A DNA stretch of 64,000 nt, taken from NCBI GenBank assembly GCA_021818955.1, contig JAKASR010000018.1, positions 17,071-81,070 on the forward strand, written 5' to 3'. The stretch is from Acidobacteriota bacterium (GTDB lineage Bacteria > Acidobacteriota > Terriglobia > Terriglobales > SCQP01). The first letter of the stretch is position 1, and every line of letters begins with the position of its first letter. Below the pieces are notes generated by a model that was not told where the DNA came from, ran no database searches, and saw only the letters and a list, made by a program, of their open reading frames with translations. Below are positions 16,438 through 35,835 of this stretch, in pieces. Position numbers and translations under genes: made by a program.

Positions 16438-18078
16438 GTGTCCGCTCCTCGCCAAAGCGACCGTCCCCGCCTCACCGGCCTCCATCTGGGCCGATTGGGC
16501 CGCATCACATTTTGGATGATGGCGGCCGTGGCGCTGTCGCGGGTGATTGGGTATATCCGTAATGCCTATATCGCCTATGCTTTTGGCGCCAATAAAATCG
16601 TCGACGTTTATGTCGCCGCATTCACCCTGCCTAATTGGCTCAACTACCTGGCCGCCGGCGGCACGCTCTCGATCACCTTCATCACGTTGTTCAGCGGCTA
16701 TCTGGCGCGCGGGGAAGAGGAGGAAGGCTATCGCGTATTCTCGACCGTTCTCAATTTCCTTTTTCTTTTTCTGCTCGCCGGCGTGGTGGCAGGCGAACTG
16801 CTGGCGCCGCGTTTGTTGCGGCTTTATTTGCCGGGGTTTTCCCCGGCACAAATGCGGTTGTGCATTCACCTCACCCGCATCCTGCTGCCGGCGCAGATTT
16901 GTTTTGGCCTGGGCGCGATTTTATCGGCTTTACTTTATGCCCGCGGGCGTTTTTTTCTGCCAGCCATCGCGCCGCTGATTTACAGCCTGTTGATTATTTG
17001 CGGAGGCGTGCTGCTGCGCGAGCGCCTGGGCATCGATAGCCTGGCCTGGGGGGCGCTGGCCGGCGCTCTACTCGGCCCCTTACTGCTGCCGTTGGCCGGC
17101 GCCCGGCATTCGGGACTGCATTATTTCTTTCAGCTTCGCTTGCGCCATCCCGGATTTCGCGAATGGCTGCGGATTACCTGGCCGCTGATGGTAGGCGTCA
17201 CCCTGGTCAGCGCCGATGATTGGATCATGCAGCCGTTGGCGGCTCATCTGCACGGGCTGATCTCGCAGCTCAATTATGCCAAGCGGTTGGATTATGTTCC
17301 AATTGCCGTGCTCGGCCAAGCCGTGGGCCAGGCCGGCATGCCTTTTTTCACCCGCCTGGCCAGCGAGCACGACTGGAAACAATTCGGCTTAACGCTGGAA
17401 CGGTATGTCTGGCGCACCGCGGCCGGGGCTCTGCTCGCGACCAGCGCGATGGCCGCGCTCAGCCTGCCGCTGGTGCGGCTCATCTATCAGCGCGGCCTAT
17501 TTCAACCCTCCGCCGCCCGCGCCACCGCGACCTACCTCGCCTTGTTTTTGCTGGCACTGGTGTTCTGGTGCGTGCAGAACCTCTATGCCCGGGCTTTCTA
17601 TGCCGTAGGCAACACCTTTACCCCCATGCTGGCCGGCACGCTGCTGACCGCGGCTATGATTCCGGTGTATGTCGTCCTTGCGCATCATTGGGGCGGCATC
17701 GGCCTGGTGCTGGCTTCCGACCTGGGCATTGCGCTCTATGCGGCGCTACTGGGCGGGTTACTGCATCGCCGGGCATTGCTGCAGCATCCACAGCGGCGGC
17801 TCGGGCAACTGGCGAGGCTGCTTGCGCTTTGCGTGGTGGCCGGCGGCGCCGTCGCCGCGCTGGTCCACGCGATCGAGCCGGCACACTATCGATGGCTGCC
17901 TGAATTAGGGGTGCTCGCGCTGGCAGGACTGGTCTGGCTGCTGCTGGCGGGTGGGCTGGCGCGCGCGCTGCGGCTCGACCCGCTGCTGGGCGAAGCTATG
18001 CGGCTGATGCGCCGCGTGGCGTTCAAGGCCGGATTGCTCAAGCCCGATATTCGCGACGATGCGCCGCTACGGGAGTGA
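16438..18078 (+). CDS. murJ: Lipid II flippase MurJ (MviN family)
   Basis: The 546-residue polytopic protein has about 13-14 hydrophobic segments. The N-terminal block with LSRVIGYIRNAYIAYAFG and NWLNYLAAGGTLSITFI matches MurJ/MviN, including the Arg-rich first helices that line the central cavity. MurJ moves lipid-linked peptidoglycan precursor across the inner membrane. The track starts it at a GTG (16438); an internal ATG at 16516 would remove the first 26 residues, but the extended N-terminus with basic residues is normal for the family. No operon partner is evident; the next gene is convergent. Confidence 0.9.
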   Translation: MSAPRQSDRPRLTGLHLGRLGRITFWMMAAVALSRVIGYIRNAYIAYAFGANKIVDVYVAAFTLPNWLNYLAAGGTLSITFITLFSGYLARGEEEEGYRVFSTVLNFLFLFLLAGVVAGELLAPRLLRLYLPGFSPAQMRLCIHLTRILLPAQICFGLGAILSALLYARGRFFLPAIAPLIYSLLIICGGVLLRERLGIDSLAWGALAGALLGPLLLPLAGARHSGLHYFFQLRLRHPGFREWLRITWPLMVGVTLVSADDWIMQPLAAHLHGLISQLNYAKRLDYVPIAVLGQAVGQAGMPFFTRLASEHDWKQFGLTLERYVWRTAAGALLATSAMAALSLPLVRLIYQRGLFQPSAARATATYLALFLLALVFWCVQNLYARAFYAVGNTFTPMLAGTLLTAAMIPVYVVLAHHWGGIGLVLASDLGIALYAALLGGLLHRRALLQHPQRRLGQLARLLALCVVAGGAVAALVHAIEPAHYRWLPELGVLALAGLVWLLLAGGLARALRLDPLLGEAMRLMRRVAFKAGLLKPDIRDDAPLRE

Positions 18079-27670: not shown

Positions 27671-28636
27671 ATGAGCAAATCTGGCCGGAAATGGCGTTTT
27701 GCCCAAGCCGTGAGCATGGCGGCGTTGGGTGTGGCGGCGCTGGCCGCGGGGCAGTCGCCGGCTAAGCCGTCAGGGTACGTCGGAGTGACCGTCTGTAAGA
27801 TGTGCCACCCCGGGCATTACAAGAGTTATCTCGCCAATCCGATGTCGAACCGCGCGGCGATGTTGGCGGCGGCGAAGCGGGCGGGGCTGCCTGCAGTCTC
27901 TGGTTGCGAGAGCTGTCATGGTCCGGGGGCGGCGCACGTGCAGGCGATGTCCTCGGCCGGCGGCGATAAGGCCAAGATCCAGGCCATTTATAAGCGCCAA
28001 CTGGAGTATGGCTATTTCGTTTCCAATGGCGCCCAAGCTAATAGCGCGCGCTGCTTGCGCTGCCATAGCACCGGATTGCAGCAGGCGCACTTTGCCCACT
28101 CCGTACACCTGGAAAACAATGTCGGCTGCCTGAACTGCCATACGGTGCACGGCAAGCCCGGCGGGAGGCATTTCTTACGGGCTTCGCAACCGCAGCTCTG
28201 CTATCAATGCCATCTTCAGCAGCGAGCGCAGTTCGAGCTCCCCTGGCATCATCGCGTCAACGAGGGTCTGGTGCGCTGCAGCGACTGCCACGACCCCCAT
28301 GGCAGCCTGATTCAGACCCAATTGCATCGCGGTCCCGCGGGCGACCAGGTCTGCTTCAAATGCCACGAGGATAAGCAAGGGCCGTTTGTCTATGAGCACG
28401 AGCCGGTGAAGACCGAGGGCTGCACCGATTGCCATACGCCGCACGGCTCGCCCAATCCGCATTTACTGAAGGTGGCGAACGTCAATCAGCTCTGTTTGCA
28501 GTGTCATACCGCGTCCAGCTTTAGCGGCGCGCCGGGCACCCCCAGCTTCCATAATCAGGCCGCGCAATTCCAGGCCTGCACCTTGTGTCATACGCAGATT
28601 CACGGATCGAATCTGGATCCGGCTTTCACCCGCTAG
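27671..28636 (+). CDS. Decaheme c-type cytochrome, DmsE/MtrA family
   Basis: The 321-residue protein has an N-terminal signal region ending near AALAAGQSPA and ten CXXCH heme motifs (CKMCH, CESCH, CLRCH, CLNCH, CYQCH, CSDCH, CFKCH, CTDCH, CLQCH, CTLCH). Ten hemes in about 320 residues is the MtrA/DmsE/PioA family, which forms a heme wire inside an outer-membrane barrel. The next gene encodes exactly that kind of barrel. It would take electrons from periplasmic carriers to the outside, or the reverse as in PioA iron oxidation. The ATG at 27671 has GAGG eight nt upstream. Direction of electron flow cannot be told. Confidence 0.93.
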   Translation: MSKSGRKWRFAQAVSMAALGVAALAAGQSPAKPSGYVGVTVCKMCHPGHYKSYLANPMSNRAAMLAAAKRAGLPAVSGCESCHGPGAAHVQAMSSAGGDKAKIQAIYKRQLEYGYFVSNGAQANSARCLRCHSTGLQQAHFAHSVHLENNVGCLNCHTVHGKPGGRHFLRASQPQLCYQCHLQQRAQFELPWHHRVNEGLVRCSDCHDPHGSLIQTQLHRGPAGDQVCFKCHEDKQGPFVYEHEPVKTEGCTDCHTPHGSPNPHLLKVANVNQLCLQCHTASSFSGAPGTPSFHNQAAQFQACTLCHTQIHGSNLDPAFTR

Positions 28637-28669
28637 CTCGGGCGGATGAGGAGAAATTGGAGAACGTAT

Positions 28670-31180
28670 ATGGCTACGAAACGCAGCGGATGGCTGAGCC
28701 GCCTGGCGCTAGCCGGGCTGTTGGGCGCCTCCCTGGCGCTGGCGCCGCTCCCGATCATGGCGCAATCGCCCGCGCCAATCACCAGTTGGAATGGTTATAA
28801 CGTCCAGAACACGATTGAAGTGGGCGGGCGCGTCACCTCGACCTCAGGGAACCAGGAGAATTACAATACCCTGGTCAATCTGCATTCCGGGGTGCGGCTG
28901 TTCAACTTCAATCTCGGCTTGCGGGCGCAGCCGCAATCCCACGGCTGGTTTGACGAGTTGCAGTTGAGCGGCTTTGGTTTCGGCGGCGATCCCAATGATG
29001 TCGCACGGCTGCACATTTCCAAATCGAAAGCCTACGATTTTAACGCGCTGTTCCGACGCGACAATTATTTCTTTGGATACAACTTTCTCGCCAACCCGCT
29101 GAATCCCAGCGGCGCCCACCCCACCGTGCCGATTACCAACGCGCTGCACAGCATCGATTATGTGCGCAACATGAGCGACTACAATTTAACCTTGCTGCCG
29201 CAATCCAGTTTTCGCGTGCGCTTGGGCTATTCGCACCTGCGCGAAACCGGCCCCTCATTGACCACGGTGGGCGCGGCGATGGATAACGGCGTTGCCGAAG
29301 TCGGCAACGATGCCGAACTCTCGCAGCAATTCTCTACTTCCACCGACCTTTATCGCGCCGGCTTCGATGTTTTACCCGCCGCTCGCACCCGTTTGTCGTT
29401 TATGGAACTGGTGCAGCACACCAAAGGCGATACCTCACTGCAGGATTTGAACCGGCTCTTCCTGCTTCCCGGCGGCACGCCGGTGGATTTGGGCGTGGTC
29501 TGGAGCGGCACCTCGTCTTGTTTTGCGTCCCCGGTGCCGGTTACGGTTCCGCCAGCATCCACGGTCAACCCGACCCCGGCTTGCTCGGGCCTGACTGCCT
29601 ATACCGGCGATCAGCGGCCGCGGATCACCCTGCCCACCGAGCAGGTCACCCTTGAAAGCAACTACTTCCGTAATCTGGCCGTGGACGGCTTATTCAGCTA
29701 CAGCTCCGCCGTGGATAAAGACAATAATGAATTCGCCAGATGGAGCGGTTATTCCAGCCGTATTCTCGCCGGCGGCGATAATGAGACCGGTACCGGGCAT
29801 GCCAAGCGCGTGTTGATTAATGGCAATCTGGCGGCGGTGTATGACGCTACCTCGAAATTCCATATCACCGAGTCGACCGATTACAATTCTTTCCGCATAC
29901 CTTCACAACTGGGCTTCCTGGTGTTGAACACCTACTATCAGGCGCCGGCCTCGCTCGCCGGCACGCCGGCGGTTTTTAATTCCACCACATGCCCGGCGCC
30001 TTATACCGCCTCCACTTGCCCCCAGCACAACACTGAATCCGCCCCCGATTTCGCCAACGGGAATTCGCTGTCGTACCTGGGACAGAATTACTTTACCGAG
30101 ACTCTTCGTGCCGGCTACGATTTTTCTTCCCGCTTCGGGGCGCAACTGGGATATCGCTACACTTACCGGACGGTCTACGATTACAATGCCATCGACTATG
30201 CCAGTGAAGTTTTCTATCCCGGCGGCTCGCTCGGCGCCGCGGATGCGGCGCGTGGCGATTGCGCCTTGCCCAAGGGTGGAACTTTACCCGGCTCTCTTCC
30301 CGCCGGCTGTACGCTTGAGCCGGATGGCTCGGTCGTCTTCACCGGCTTCACTCCCGCGAGTGACACGACCCATAACCAGGCAGTGCAGATTCACGGCAAC
30401 ACGGCGCTATTCAACACCTGGGCGCTGCCGGTCAATAGTGTGCGCATCAGTTTCGCTCTGGAAGCCTACTCCGCCGATCATTCCTTCACCCGCATTACGC
30501 CCCGCCAATATCAGCACTATACCCTGCAGTTCAGTTTCAAACCGGTTGACTGGGCGCAGTTGGCGAGCACGGTCAATCTTTACCAGGGGCGCGATAATGT
30601 AGCCGAAGTGAAATATAAAGACCATGACCGCAGCTATGGTGCGAACCTGACCCTGATGCCGGTTTCCAGGATTTTTTTCGACGCCGGTTATAACTATGAG
30701 GATATCTACAATCAGGCGATTGAATGCTATGCGTCAGGCTTTGGCGCGCCGCCGGCGGGCGCCAGCCTCTGCCCCGAAACCGATTCACCGGTGCCGTTAG
30801 GCGCGCTGTCCACTTACGCTAGCAAGCAGCACTCGCTCAACGCCGACCTGCGCTGGAAACCGGTAAAGCTGTTCTCCCTGCGCCTGGGCATGGCCGGTAG
30901 TTACGTGAACGGGCTGCCGCAGTTCTTTGCCTTGAATACCGGCGGATTTATCGGCAATTTCCTTAATCCGCGCACGCCCTGGGGGCCGCTAAGCTTCAGC
31001 TACCAGGAGCCTTATGCCCACCTGACGGTCAACTTCACTAAAAATGTCGCTTACACCATGGGTTGGCAGCTCTATGATTACCGCACGCATGGCAATCAGT
31101 CCCCAAACGGACTGGCTCCGATCGGGTCACAAAGCTTCAAAGTCAATGCCGGAACTTTCGGTATTCGCTTTAGCTTATAG
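28670..31180 (+). CDS. MtrB/PioB-family outer-membrane beta-barrel
   Basis: The track begins at 28646, but the ATG at 28670 has GGAG at good spacing and gives a proper signal peptide (MATKRSGWLSRLALAGLL...IMAQ). The 836-residue mature-type sequence is rich in alternating aromatic/polar beta strands such as SFRVRLGYSHLRETG and FRIPSQLGFLVLNTYY, and it ends in a strand closing with FSL, all typical of large barrels. Location directly after a decaheme DmsE/MtrA gene identifies it as the porin part of a porin-cytochrome conduit. No N-terminal CXXC motif (seen in Shewanella MtrB) is present, so it is closer to PioB in that respect. Confidence 0.88.
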   Translation: MATKRSGWLSRLALAGLLGASLALAPLPIMAQSPAPITSWNGYNVQNTIEVGGRVTSTSGNQENYNTLVNLHSGVRLFNFNLGLRAQPQSHGWFDELQLSGFGFGGDPNDVARLHISKSKAYDFNALFRRDNYFFGYNFLANPLNPSGAHPTVPITNALHSIDYVRNMSDYNLTLLPQSSFRVRLGYSHLRETGPSLTTVGAAMDNGVAEVGNDAELSQQFSTSTDLYRAGFDVLPAARTRLSFMELVQHTKGDTSLQDLNRLFLLPGGTPVDLGVVWSGTSSCFASPVPVTVPPASTVNPTPACSGLTAYTGDQRPRITLPTEQVTLESNYFRNLAVDGLFSYSSAVDKDNNEFARWSGYSSRILAGGDNETGTGHAKRVLINGNLAAVYDATSKFHITESTDYNSFRIPSQLGFLVLNTYYQAPASLAGTPAVFNSTTCPAPYTASTCPQHNTESAPDFANGNSLSYLGQNYFTETLRAGYDFSSRFGAQLGYRYTYRTVYDYNAIDYASEVFYPGGSLGAADAARGDCALPKGGTLPGSLPAGCTLEPDGSVVFTGFTPASDTTHNQAVQIHGNTALFNTWALPVNSVRISFALEAYSADHSFTRITPRQYQHYTLQFSFKPVDWAQLASTVNLYQGRDNVAEVKYKDHDRSYGANLTLMPVSRIFFDAGYNYEDIYNQAIECYASGFGAPPAGASLCPETDSPVPLGALSTYASKQHSLNADLRWKPVKLFSLRLGMAGSYVNGLPQFFALNTGGFIGNFLNPRTPWGPLSFSYQEPYAHLTVNFTKNVAYTMGWQLYDYRTHGNQSPNGLAPIGSQSFKVNAGTFGIRFSL

Positions 31181-31228
31181 AACGCTGAACCAAAATAAAT
31201 CATCTATATAGTGTTAATCAACAGGCAT

Positions 31229-31262
31229 TCGGGCCAGTTTCGCGACCGCGAGACTGGCCCGA
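31229..31262 (+). promoter_or_regulatory. Strong hairpin between mtrB-like gene and monoheme cytochrome
   Basis: TCGGGCCAGTTTCGCG pairs with CGCGAGACTGGCCCGA with one mismatch and a tiny loop, making a stem of about 15 bp. It is in the 97-nt gap and is not followed by T's, so it is more likely an mRNA processing or stability element than a full terminator. It could also lower expression of the downstream cytochrome. Confidence 0.55.
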
Positions 31263-31277
31263 GAAGAGTATGGGGGC

Positions 31278-31613
31278 ATGAAAATGCAAAGCTTGCAAGG
31301 GATTACGATAGTGGCAGCTATCGCCACCTTATTGGTGACGGCGGGAACGGCACAAGCGCAACGAGCACATACGCTCTATGCTTCCAAATGCGCAGGCTGC
31401 CATGCCAATGATGGCTCGGGCAATACGTCAATGGGCCAGATGATGCACATTCCCAGCTTTAAATCGCCCGCTGTACAAAAAATGACGAACGCAAAGCTGA
31501 GGGTAATGATCGCCAATGGCAAAGCTCCGATGCCGGCGTTCAAGGGTCAGTTGACCAACACGCAGATTGGCGAGTTGGTGCAATATGTGCGCACCTTGGC
31601 CAAGCGGAAATAA
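31278..31613 (+). CDS. Small monoheme cytochrome c
   Basis: The 111-residue protein has a signal peptide (MKMQSLQGITIVAAIATLLVTAGTAQA), one CXXCH heme site (YASKCAGCH) and a likely axial Met in GKAPMPAFKG. This is the class I cytochrome c layout used for periplasmic electron shuttling. It follows the porin-cytochrome pair and precedes a good terminator, so it probably belongs to the same transcription unit and feeds electrons to or from the decaheme protein. A GGGG ribosome-binding site lies just before the ATG. Confidence 0.9.
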   Translation: MKMQSLQGITIVAAIATLLVTAGTAQAQRAHTLYASKCAGCHANDGSGNTSMGQMMHIPSFKSPAVQKMTNAKLRVMIANGKAPMPAFKGQLTNTQIGELVQYVRTLAKRK

Positions 31614-31725
31614 TCAATCCTGCCCCGATTAGCGGATTGAACTCGTAAAGCATTCACGGCCGTGCCGGATAGGAGTTCAGGATCTCGTTTTCTTGCGCCC
31701 TGCCGGTCTCCTGTGCTGGTTAATC

Positions 31726-31766
31726 GCTGGCGCCGCTCTGATTCAGTGGCGCCAGCTCTGTTTTTG
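31726..31766 (+). terminator. Intrinsic terminator of the cytochrome cassette
   Basis: GCTGGCGCC pairs perfectly with GGCGCCAGC across a 13-nt loop and is followed by TCTGTTTTTG. This is a textbook rho-independent terminator on the plus strand, about 110 nt after the monoheme cytochrome stop. Confidence 0.85.
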
Positions 31767-31932: not shown

Positions 31933-34900
31933 ATGTCCAAGCCGGTTGCCATTAAACCTGAAGTTCGCGAATTCCTGATGGAATTGGCGGAGCAAGCCGG
32001 CGTGTCGGAACTGGCGCGGGCCATTGACGCCGGAGCACGTCCGCAGGCTGGCGGCCTTACTCCGCCGGCGCAATCTCTATTGGCGATATGGCTGCATGTC
32101 TTAGCCAAGCGCCCGGTATGGCTGCTCGTTGCCGATAATGCTGCCGCCGAAGAGCGGTGCCGCGAGCTGGCATTTTTCCAAACCATGTTGCATCACAGCA
32201 GCGAGCCGCCACTGGTGATGCCTGCCTGGGAACATGATCCGTATGAAGGCTTGGCTCCGCATGAGGATATTCAGGAGCGTCAGGCTCTGGCGCTCTGGCG
32301 CGCGGCCAGCGACTCCGCCGCGCTGGTAGTGGCGCCGGCGGTGGCGATGATGTTGCGTTTGGGACCGCCGGCGGATTATCGCGCTTTGGGACAAAGCCTT
32401 CGCCGTGGGGAAAGGCTGGAACTGGGAACTTTAATCGAGCATCTGCGCCGGATCGGCTATCGTCAATCCGAACTCGTCGAAATGCCGGGCCAATTTGCCC
32501 GCCGCGGCGGCTTGCTCGATGTCTTTCCTCCCGAAGCCGATTGGCCGCTGCGGCTGGAATTTTTCGATAATGAGATCGAGTCGCTGCGCCACTTCGATCC
32601 GGCAACGCAGCGCTCTACTCAGGCAGTTGAACAGGCGGTGCTGGCGCCTTTGGCGGCCGGTGTCGGTGGAGGCGAGGAGGCGGGCCTGGCCGTGGGCTGG
32701 GCCGGCCTGCGGCTGGAAACCGGCGCACCGGCTTCTTATTCGTTCTTCGACCTCAATCCGCGCGCATTCGTACTGGTCTCCGATCCCGAGGCCGTGGCCG
32801 CGGAGTGGCGGCGTTGGTGGGAACGCCTGGAACGACGATATCCCGGCACTCGGGATTTGGCGAAAACGGCCGGTTTGCATGCGCCGGCGCCAGACGACCT
32901 TTTTTATTCCCCTGCGGAAATGGCGGAATGTATCTCTGCGGTTGCAGGCGCCGAGCTGCGCGAGTTGGAGTATACCGCCAACTCTGCTATTTCCTGGGCT
33001 CCTCCGGTGAAGGCGCCGTCTGAGCGAACCGAAGCAGAAGAGGATGGATTTCTCGAGCTAGAAGCCGATGCCATCCTTTTGCGCGCGGAAAGCGGCGGTC
33101 GAGGCAGCGAAATGCAAGCCAGACTCCACTCGCGGCGCGACGCCGATTCGCCGCCGCCGGGTCCCAGCCATTCCGCGGCCAGCGATGCGCAGGCGGTTGC
33201 CGGTCACCCATCCCACGCAATCGAAAGGGTTGACCGGGCCCCTGTTTTTTCGTTTTCCACCCGACCCGCACCGCGGCCGGCGGGCGGCTTGGATCGCATG
33301 CTGGAGGAATTGCATCGCCGGCTGGATCGCGGCGATCGAGTGTTGCTGGCCACCGCAAATATCGGCGAGTTGGAACGTTTGAGCGATTTGTTGCTGGAAA
33401 ATAACCTGCCGTTTCAATTAGGGATGAGGCCCGAAGGCGGAGCGGAATGGTTAGCGGAAAAAGCCCACACCCGCCCGGTGACGCCCGCGCCGTTGCTGGT
33501 GGCAGGCGCGCTTGCCCATGGGCTGGAATGGCGAAGCGCGGAGGGCGCCACCCTTATCTGGGGCAATGCCGACCTTTTGCGCCGTGAGCCGGCGCCACCG
33601 CAGCCGCCGCGCCCGCGCTCCCGCCTGGGCGCATTCCTCGGTGATTTTAGCGATCTCAAGCCCGGCGATTTTGTGGTTCACGTCGAGCATGGCATCGCCT
33701 GCTATCGCGGGCTCGCGAAAATGCCGGCGGCTGCAGGCGGCCCGGAAAGCGAGTTCATGCTGCTCGAATACGCCGAAGGCGCCAAACTCTACCTGCCGTT
33801 GACGCGCATGGATCAGGTCCAGAAGTACCGTTCCGGCGATGGCGTCCATCCCCCGCTCGACCGCTTGGGCAGTACGCAATGGATGCAGCGGAAAAACCGG
33901 GTCAAGCGGGCCATGCGGGATATGACTGATGAGCTGCTCAAGCTCTATGCCGCAAGACAGACCGCGCGTATCGAGCCGTGCGGTCCCGATACCCATTGGC
34001 AGCGCGAATTTGAAGATGCCTTCCCTTATACCTTGACCGAAGACCAGGAACGCGCCATTGAAGACGTGCGCCGCGACCTGCGGCAACCCCGGCCCATGGA
34101 TCGTCTGTTGGTCGGCGATGTCGGCTATGGCAAGACCGAAGTCGCCATGCGCGCCGCTTGCAAGCTGGTGAGCGAAGGCCGGCAGGCGGCAGTGCTGGCG
34201 CCTACCACCGTGCTGGCTTTCCAACACTTTGAAACCTTCCGTAATCGATTTGCGGCATTCCCGGTGCGGATTGAATTGCTCAGCCGTTTTCGTGCCCGCG
34301 CCGACCAGGCGGCGGTGTTGGCGGCGCTGGCGGCGGGCAAAGTGGATATCGTCATCGGCACGCATCGCCTGCTGTCGAAAGACGTGCGCTTCCAACGGCT
34401 CGGACTGCTGGTGGTGGATGAAGAGCAGCGTTTTGGCGTACGGCACAAAGAGCGACTAAAGCAACTTAAACAGGAGGTCCACGTTCTGGCGCTTTCGGCA
34501 ACCCCGATTCCCCGCACCCTCAACATGTCACTGGCAGGGCTGCGCGACTTATCCGTGATCGAAACGCCGCCCAAAGACCGGCTGGCAATCCAGACCGTGG
34601 TCGCAAGCTGGAGCGAAGACCTGGTGCGGCAGGCGCTGGAAACGGAACTGCAGCGCGGTGGCCAGGTATTTTATATTCATAATCGCGTGTCCAGCATCTG
34701 GGAAACCGCGGCGCGGCTGCAGGAATTGGCGCCGGCGGCGCGAATCGCAGTGGCGCATGGACAACTGGATGGCGGCAAGCACGGCGGACGGGCCGCAGCG
34801 GCGCGAAGGCTGGCTCCGGCCAGCCTGACAAGCCGTGGCGGCGATCACGATTCGCCCAGGCAGGCTTCAGAAGACCTGCCCCATCCAACCAGCGGCCGGG

Positions 34901-35835
34901 CCCGTCCTGGCCGGCCGCCAGCGAGCGAAGCCGAATTGGAGCGAGTGATGCTCCGTTTCATTCGCCACCAGGCCGATATCCTGGTTTCGACCAGCATCGT
35001 CGAAAACGGCCTGGATATCCCGCTCGCCAATACCATTCTGATCGAGCGCGCCGACATGTTTGGCTTGAGCGAGCTGTATCAATTGCGCGGGCGCGTGGGC
35101 CGCTCCAATCGCCGAGCCTATGCTTATTTGCTGGCTCCCCTACTCAATGAACTGTCGCCGCTAGCCCGCAAGCGCCTGGCGGCCATGCGCGAGTTCAGCG
35201 ATTTGGGCGCCGGTTTTAAAATTGCGGCCCTTGATTTGGAATTGCGCGGCGCCGGCAACCTGCTCGGCGCCGAGCAAAGCGGCCATATCGAGGCGGTGGG
35301 CTTTGATCTCTACCTGCGCATGCTGGAGCAAACCGTGCGCGAGCGCCGCGGCGAGACGCCGGCCGAAAGCGAAGAAACCCCGGTGCAAATCCAGCTCGGG
35401 GTTGAAATTGGCATTCCTGAAAGCTATATTGCGGGCGAGACGCAGCGCCTGCGCATGTACAAGCGGATTGCCGAAGCCGATAGCGATGCCGCCCGCGAAG
35501 ACGTGGAGCGCGAACTGGCCGACCGCTTTGGCTCGCCTCCCGCGCCGGTGCACCACCTGCTCGCCTATGCCGCTATTAAGGCCGAATGCCTGCGCCTAGG
35601 CATCCGCGTTTTAGAGCGGCGGCGCGAGCAGTTGGTGTTGCAATTCAAATCCGAGGCGGGCGCGGAGTTGGATCGCCGCCGGCTGGCCGATCTCGTAGCG
35701 CGCACCAAAGGCGCGCAACTCAGTCCCCAGGGCGTATTGAAGCTGCCCTTCCGTGGCGAGAGCGCCGAGTCCGTGCTCAAAACAGTCCGTACTTTACTGA
35801 CCCGGCTACGCGCTCCCATTGCCGCCGCCGGCTGA
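31933..35835 (+). CDS. mfd: Transcription-repair coupling factor Mfd
   Basis: Mfd releases RNA polymerase stalled at DNA damage and recruits UvrA. Visible parts are the UvrB-like N-terminus (about 1-330), the RNA-polymerase-interacting domain (LKPGDFVVHVEHGIACYRG), Walker A GDVGYGKTEVA near 722, the VVDEEQRFG box near 826, the SATPIPRTLNMSL motif and the C-terminal TRCF domain. The track begins at a TTG (31885); ATG 31915 or 31933 (MSKPVAIKPEV) is more likely. At about 1300 residues it is longer than the usual 1150 or so because of two in-frame insertions, a Ser/Pro/His-rich one near 390-450 and an Arg/Ala/Ser-rich one near 940-995. Confidence 0.95.
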   Translation: MSKPVAIKPEVREFLMELAEQAGVSELARAIDAGARPQAGGLTPPAQSLLAIWLHVLAKRPVWLLVADNAAAEERCRELAFFQTMLHHSSEPPLVMPAWEHDPYEGLAPHEDIQERQALALWRAASDSAALVVAPAVAMMLRLGPPADYRALGQSLRRGERLELGTLIEHLRRIGYRQSELVEMPGQFARRGGLLDVFPPEADWPLRLEFFDNEIESLRHFDPATQRSTQAVEQAVLAPLAAGVGGGEEAGLAVGWAGLRLETGAPASYSFFDLNPRAFVLVSDPEAVAAEWRRWWERLERRYPGTRDLAKTAGLHAPAPDDLFYSPAEMAECISAVAGAELRELEYTANSAISWAPPVKAPSERTEAEEDGFLELEADAILLRAESGGRGSEMQARLHSRRDADSPPPGPSHSAASDAQAVAGHPSHAIERVDRAPVFSFSTRPAPRPAGGLDRMLEELHRRLDRGDRVLLATANIGELERLSDLLLENNLPFQLGMRPEGGAEWLAEKAHTRPVTPAPLLVAGALAHGLEWRSAEGATLIWGNADLLRREPAPPQPPRPRSRLGAFLGDFSDLKPGDFVVHVEHGIACYRGLAKMPAAAGGPESEFMLLEYAEGAKLYLPLTRMDQVQKYRSGDGVHPPLDRLGSTQWMQRKNRVKRAMRDMTDELLKLYAARQTARIEPCGPDTHWQREFEDAFPYTLTEDQERAIEDVRRDLRQPRPMDRLLVGDVGYGKTEVAMRAACKLVSEGRQAAVLAPTTVLAFQHFETFRNRFAAFPVRIELLSRFRARADQAAVLAALAAGKVDIVIGTHRLLSKDVRFQRLGLLVVDEEQRFGVRHKERLKQLKQEVHVLALSATPIPRTLNMSLAGLRDLSVIETPPKDRLAIQTVVASWSEDLVRQALETELQRGGQVFYIHNRVSSIWETAARLQELAPAARIAVAHGQLDGGKHGGRAAAARRLAPASLTSRGGDHDSPRQASEDLPHPTSGRARPGRPPASEAELERVMLRFIRHQADILVSTSIVENGLDIPLANTILIERADMFGLSELYQLRGRVGRSNRRAYAYLLAPLLNELSPLARKRLAAMREFSDLGAGFKIAALDLELRGAGNLLGAEQSGHIEAVGFDLYLRMLEQTVRERRGETPAESEETPVQIQLGVEIGIPESYIAGETQRLRMYKRIAEADSDAAREDVERELADRFGSPPAPVHHLLAYAAIKAECLRLGIRVLERRREQLVLQFKSEAGAELDRRRLADLVARTKGAQLSPQGVLKLPFRGESAESVLKTVRTLLTRLRAPIAAAG

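Follow-up and report, generated by a model that had tools for sequence, protein, structure and literature searches.

The window analysed here is a stretch of 64,000 nucleotides, positions 17071–81070 of contig C22 of genome G000, a 3.8-Mb acidobacterial genome bin that is 96%-complete. Within it lie three intact genes on one strand, which encode a decaheme c-type cytochrome, a predicted outer-membrane barrel protein and a monoheme cytochrome c (table 1). What might these three adjacent genes do together? From their sequences we conclude that they very probably specify a ten-heme wire set in an outer-membrane pore, together with a small electron carrier.

The barrel reading frame starts 9 bp past the decaheme stop codon. 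A second in-frame ATG, with GGAG ahead of it, is as good a start as the one adopted, and the signal peptide ends ...LPIMAQS. The monoheme protein scores 50.6 bits against Cytochrome_CBB3 (PF13442, cut-off 27). At the end of the cassette a stem of 12 pairs, nine of them G–C, is followed by TCTGTTTTTG. It is the longest of six candidate stems in 5.3 kb, a number of candidates no higher than chance. The coordinates and gene description of the initial annotation, with its ten CXXCH motifs, signal-peptide-bearing barrel-type protein and class I cytochrome, agree with our reading of the open reading frames and with PF13442, and the strong terminator it had placed at the end of the cassette corresponds to this stem and its T tail. 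The order decaheme–barrel–monoheme is kept in another genome of the same genus, the metagenome-assembled genome DBS2-1.bin132, at a barrel identity of 75–76%.

Table 1. Features of the three-gene cassette, in coordinates of the window.
Feature	Positions	Strand	Basis
Decaheme cytochrome c of the MtrA/DmsE family, periplasmic; 321 aa with ten CXXCH	27671..28636	+	TIGR03508, 6r2q_A, shared His columns
Predicted outer-membrane barrel partner, 844 aa (836 aa from ATG 28670)	28646..31180	+	Uncatalogued family, remote to MtrB/PioB; profile-profile comparison
Monoheme cytochrome c (class I, 111 aa) with signal peptide; putative shuttle in the periplasm	31278..31613	+	PF13442; barrel-then-monoheme order in relatives
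Hairpin with T tail, terminator-like, at the end of the cassette	31726..31764	+	Stem search

How close is the decaheme to cytochromes of known structure? It contains exactly ten CXXCH motifs; composition shuffles contain 0.1 on average and 2 at most. Against TIGR03508, the model of the DmsE/MtrA family, it scores 239.7 bits (cut-off 192.2), residues 38–316 spanning positions 1–257 of the 258 in the model. Among solved structures the best match is MtrA of Shewanella baltica (PDB 6r2q_A, E 1e-30). With that protein and with the MtrA of Photobacterium, from an unannotated Mtr cluster that came from a plasmid search and served as outgroup, it has 18 His columns in common: ten within CXXCH and eight outside, the latter forming the pattern expected of distal ligands. 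The second-best model, that of GSU2203 (NF041028), gives 195.9 bits, under its cut-off of 325. Judged by these similarities the protein is clearly a homologue of MtrA and a member of the MtrA/DmsE family, as had been proposed.

To which family does the barrel protein belong? It has no Pfam match and no NCBIfam match over cut-off; the only model that it matches, weakly, is that of GSU2204 (NF041027), at 20.6 bits versus a cut-off of 350. To place it we drew on relatives from searches that covered genomes of Acidobacteriota. TIGR03509, the MtrB/PioB model, matches none of 30 such relatives, nor the window protein itself. Weak matches were obtained with the GSU2204 model (17 of the 30) and with PF11854 (2 of the 30, best E 3.6e-4), and none of the relatives passes the cut-off of a curated MtrB/PioB family. 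TIGR03509 does match every one of the true MtrB/PioB proteins from this phylum. Searched against the PDB, a profile of that true family finds 6r2q_B, the solved MtrB, at 4.5e-101; the profile of the window family finds nothing there. Yet when the two profiles are compared with one another they match at 99.6–99.7% over 610–654 columns, the whole mature length, as against 20.4% over 185 columns for the reversed-profile control. The match to the single MtrB of Photobacterium is 79%. We conclude that, by profile similarity, the window family is a remote sister of MtrB/PioB lying outside that family as curated. The ‘MtrB/PioB-like barrel’ of the initial annotation thus stands as a remote, full-length resemblance and falls as a family assignment, no TIGR03509 or PF11854 match passing its cut-off. 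The label ‘barrel’ is itself a prediction, drawn from this remote homology to MtrB rather than from a structure.

Are the two genes inherited together? Of the genomes sampled, 44 of 199 from the phylum and 105 of 200 from the order encode relatives of the barrel. True MtrB/PioB proteins are encoded in 55 of those 199 phylum genomes; none was found in the window's genome. A decaheme gene lies directly upstream of the barrel gene at all 48 order-level loci examined and at 29 of the 31 phylum-level loci, the gap being commonly 9–16 bp. Of the 69 decahemes in a tree, the 40 that are paired with this barrel family lie without exception on one side of a 100/100 branch; on the other side are 27 decahemes paired with PF11854 barrels and two MtrA. 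Because the tree splits at this branch by barrel partner, decaheme and barrel have been co-inherited as a lineage apart from MtrAB. The tree was built without PioA, MtoA, DmsE and GSU2203; of the phylogenetic comparison suggested earlier, with PioAB, MtoAB and MtrAB, it answers the part concerning MtrA.

Might there be no transmembrane wire at all? The decaheme would then store electrons in the periplasm, and the barrel would be a porin cotranscribed with it but otherwise unrelated. In keeping with this, none of the curated MtrB/PioB models matches the barrel, and AlphaFold2, given only two sequences (that of the window and that of locus L035), returned a predicted local distance difference test score (pLDDT) of only 25.7. 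But an unrelated porin would hardly show near-universal adjacency to the decaheme, co-inheritance with it in a single clade, and a profile that resembles that of the MtrB family over its full length, the reversed control being clean. We regard this explanation as very improbable. By analogy with MtrA in MtrB, we infer that the decaheme would plug the outer-membrane barrel so as to create a transmembrane heme wire.

Comparison with known systems places this pair more exactly. The MtrAB core of MtrCAB (Shewanella; 6r2q) likewise consists of a ten-heme periplasmic cytochrome and an outer-membrane barrel, their genes side by side. However, the window barrel lies outside the MtrB/PioB models, its decaheme belongs to a separate clade and a monoheme gene follows downstream. 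Nor is there an MtrC: the cassette has none, and the MtrC/OmcA model TIGR03507 has no match over cut-off in the window's genome, which bears out the earlier statement that no such surface protein is encoded. PioAB and MtoAB share with the window a decaheme and barrel without a surface decaheme, and MtoAB also has a monoheme, MtoD. The special resemblance to PioAB that had been suggested is not upheld: the decaheme falls outside the clade of MtrA and true-barrel partners, the barrel family differs, the high-potential iron–sulfur protein (HiPIP) PioC has no counterpart, only the monoheme gene and then mfd following the barrel, and the modules linked in relatives are of quinol-oxidase types, though the comparison includes no direct alignment to PioA or MtoA. 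In GSU2203–GSU2204 of Geobacter, too, a decaheme adjoins a barrel, but the window pair scores far under both cut-offs, as given above. Finally, the Group 5 acidobacterial MtrCAB (Baker et al. 2022, PMC8805035) is also an acidobacterial decaheme conduit. Those clusters have MtrC and a tetraheme cytochrome, with no quinone oxidoreductase nearby, whereas the window conduit lacks MtrC and its relatives usually lie beside quinol modules.

If the wire spans the outer membrane, what supplies it at the inner membrane? A same-strand quinol module of the inner membrane lies within 9 kb of the conduit at 33 of the 48 order-level loci. By type, 19 of the 48 are ImcH-like, 11 cytochrome b/Rieske, 8 CbcL-like and 3 small NapC/NrfH-like, some loci holding more than one; these proportions are not an unbiased census, because the loci were drawn mostly from the best-scoring matches. 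At several of the cytochrome b/Rieske loci a cytochrome c is fused to the cytochrome b, and the CbcL-like proteins carry eleven hemes and a C-terminal cytochrome b561 domain. A monoheme gene follows the barrel at 31 of the 48. Thirty-five genomes of the phylum sample have both this barrel and a full-length ImcH-like gene; in 16 of them the two are no more than 8 kb apart, where simple arithmetic for random placement in genomes of about 4 Mb gives an expectation well under one. In several genomes ImcH-like genes stand near PF11854 barrels too. Since Zhong and Shi found no mtrAB or mtoAB adjoining imcH (PMC6295460), and Baker et al. no quinone partner near acidobacterial mtrCAB, the linkage of conduit and quinol module appears to be undescribed in the searchable literature.

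The same neighbourhoods bear on the possibility that the conduit is of the DmsEF kind, serving a specific extracellular molybdoenzyme or other dedicated reductase rather than metals or humics. The DmsE family model is indeed the best family for the decaheme, but it scores MtrA-type decahemes broadly as well. The window cassette contains no DmsAB-type gene; in the relatives, whose neighbouring genes were not annotated exhaustively, we recognised none among the multiheme genes and the partner genes. A dedicated reductase of this sort seems improbable.

Two other arrangements were seen at loci of the same order. At L089:10231-13600 (genome G061) genes for a NiFe-hydrogenase large subunit and a maturation-protease-like protein precede the decaheme on the same strand. 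The run there reads hydrogenase, decaheme, barrel, two monohemes and ImcH-like, and H2-dependent extracellular respiration is therefore possible. At L167:11588-13960 and L183:13410-15488, proteins with 19 CXXCH are encoded between the conduit and the ImcH-like gene.

Which module might serve the conduit of the window? The initial annotation had proposed a search for an inner-membrane partner elsewhere in the genome and had held that its absence would tell against a conduit; candidates are in fact present. One ImcH-like protein is encoded at G000:C5:17935-19410, with a monoheme gene just upstream. It has an atypical CX3CH (CGRTCH), five CX2CH and, read by eye, three hydrophobic stretches, and scores 31.8 bits against NapC/NirT (PF03264, cut-off 24.1). 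This agrees with the layout of ImcH homologues, which combine CX3CH, CX2CH and hydrophobic stretches (PMC6295460). Our definition of the ImcH type was three N-terminal transmembrane helices, an adjacent CX3CH, 5–9 CX2CH and similarity to NapC/NirT. The protein is of this type by layout and domain. The monoheme and ImcH-like arrangement recurs in the sister genome; in the other sampled members of the family no ImcH was found. A second candidate is a cytochrome b–c fusion at G000:C14, which scores 551 bits against a conduit-linked one, and a complex at G000:C19 resembles, as read from sequence, alternative complex III. Among these, the most likely partner is the ImcH-like protein, the b–c fusion or both. 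We also considered that the operon had been split in this genome into decaheme–barrel–monoheme and monoheme–ImcH halves; the monoheme tree does not support it.

In which direction would the electrons move? We infer that the conduit probably exports them. Electrons would pass from quinol, presumably menaquinol, to ImcH or a bc complex and from there to the monoheme, which would ferry them across the periplasm between this inner-membrane quinol:cytochrome oxidoreductase and the wire. The last carrier would be the decaheme. In the absence of an MtrC-type surface protein, its own exposed end would hand the electrons directly to an acceptor outside the cell, for example Fe(III) or humics. Two points speak for export: ImcH-like and CbcL-like modules predominate among the linked partners, ImcH being known so far from Fe(III) reducers only (PMC6295460), and acidophilic Acidobacteria, several of them according to PMC8790237, reduce Fe(III) (PMC8790237, PMC8787282).

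Several observations weigh against this scheme. At 15 of the 48 order-level loci there is no quinol module nearby. The conduit and the ImcH-like gene of the window's genome lie on different contigs, and its two monohemes are not matched, in the monoheme tree, to separate shuttle roles in relatives. Cytochrome bc complexes and NapC-type cytochromes can work in both directions. The barrel, moreover, is a predicted one, its two-sequence AlphaFold2 model having a low pLDDT.

The reverse flow would be electron import, as in PioAB and MtoAB: from extracellular Fe(II) through the conduit to an MtoD-like monoheme, and then to a terminal oxidase or uphill via a bc complex. The sister genome may come from acid mine drainage, a guess from its name only. 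Consistent with import are the want of a surface decaheme over cut-off in the genome, the monoheme gene adjoining the pair, the bc-type complexes linked at 11 of the 48 loci and the PioA/MtoA homologues reported from Acidobacteriia (PMC10654088). Moreover, MtrAB-type cores are not split by direction in trees (PMC8805035), and import therefore keeps some probability. But the prevalence of ImcH-like and CbcL-like partners, the lack of a HiPIP gene and the position of the decaheme outside the clade of MtrA and PF11854-linked decahemes all argue the other way. Electron import from Fe(II) is less well supported than export and we consider it unlikely.

How much of this is new? The existence of such genes is not, since acidobacterial mtrA/mtrB and PioA/MtoA homologues have been mentioned earlier (PMC5900883, PMC10654088, PMC3669403). 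Eichorst et al. 2018 recorded mtrA/mtrB homologues, as presence only, in cultured Acidobacteriaceae, found no complete mtr/omc operon and judged these strains to lack Shewanella- or Geobacter-like pathways (PMC5900883). Those soil-acidobacterial homologues probably overlap the window family. The ‘mtrA’ of Granulicella in PMC7315648 is a response regulator, not a cytochrome. The apparent novelty is that a distinct barrel family and a decaheme clade together form a separate lineage, and that this lineage has genetic links to quinol modules of several kinds.

Tentatively, and with slightly less than even confidence, we suggest a broader view. The pair would represent a distinct, uncatalogued lineage, vertically widespread in Acidobacteriota, in which a fixed outer-membrane wire is combined with interchangeable quinol oxidases (ImcH, CbcL, bc, NapC/NrfH) and no surface MtrC, and which would explain ferric iron reduction by acidophilic soil Acidobacteria. 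In published genome surveys (PMC5900883, PMC8790237) the acidophilic Acidobacteria that reduce Fe(III) were judged to have no complete Mtr or Omc pathway. The conserved pair, whose uncatalogued barrel escapes the curated MtrB/PioB models, and the inner-membrane modules that match it are specific genes that can be tested in relatives amenable to culture. They also connect imcH-type genes with MtrA-type conduits at the genomic level, a connection that the earlier survey had not found (PMC6295460).

The cassette is flanked upstream by a PMT_2-like glycosyltransferase gene. Directly downstream, on the same strand, lies mfd, encoding the transcription-repair coupling factor (31933-35835), as it does in the sister genome. 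Elsewhere in the window's genome are two related seven-CXXCH cytochromes, G000:C42:36866-38005 (L098, 380 aa) and G000:C29:205995-207191 (L099, 399 aa), which match decaheme and cytochrome c554 models weakly. A large open reading frame on G000:C12 (L203:751-3477) shows hydrophobic stretches near its N terminus and, in the part covered, five CXXCH. Finally, an eleven-CXXCH protein of 448 aa is encoded on the minus strand of G000:C40 (L084:562-1905), beside a GH30 glycosidase gene; it looks like the heme-bearing portion of the CbcL-like proteins and lacks their cytochrome b domain.

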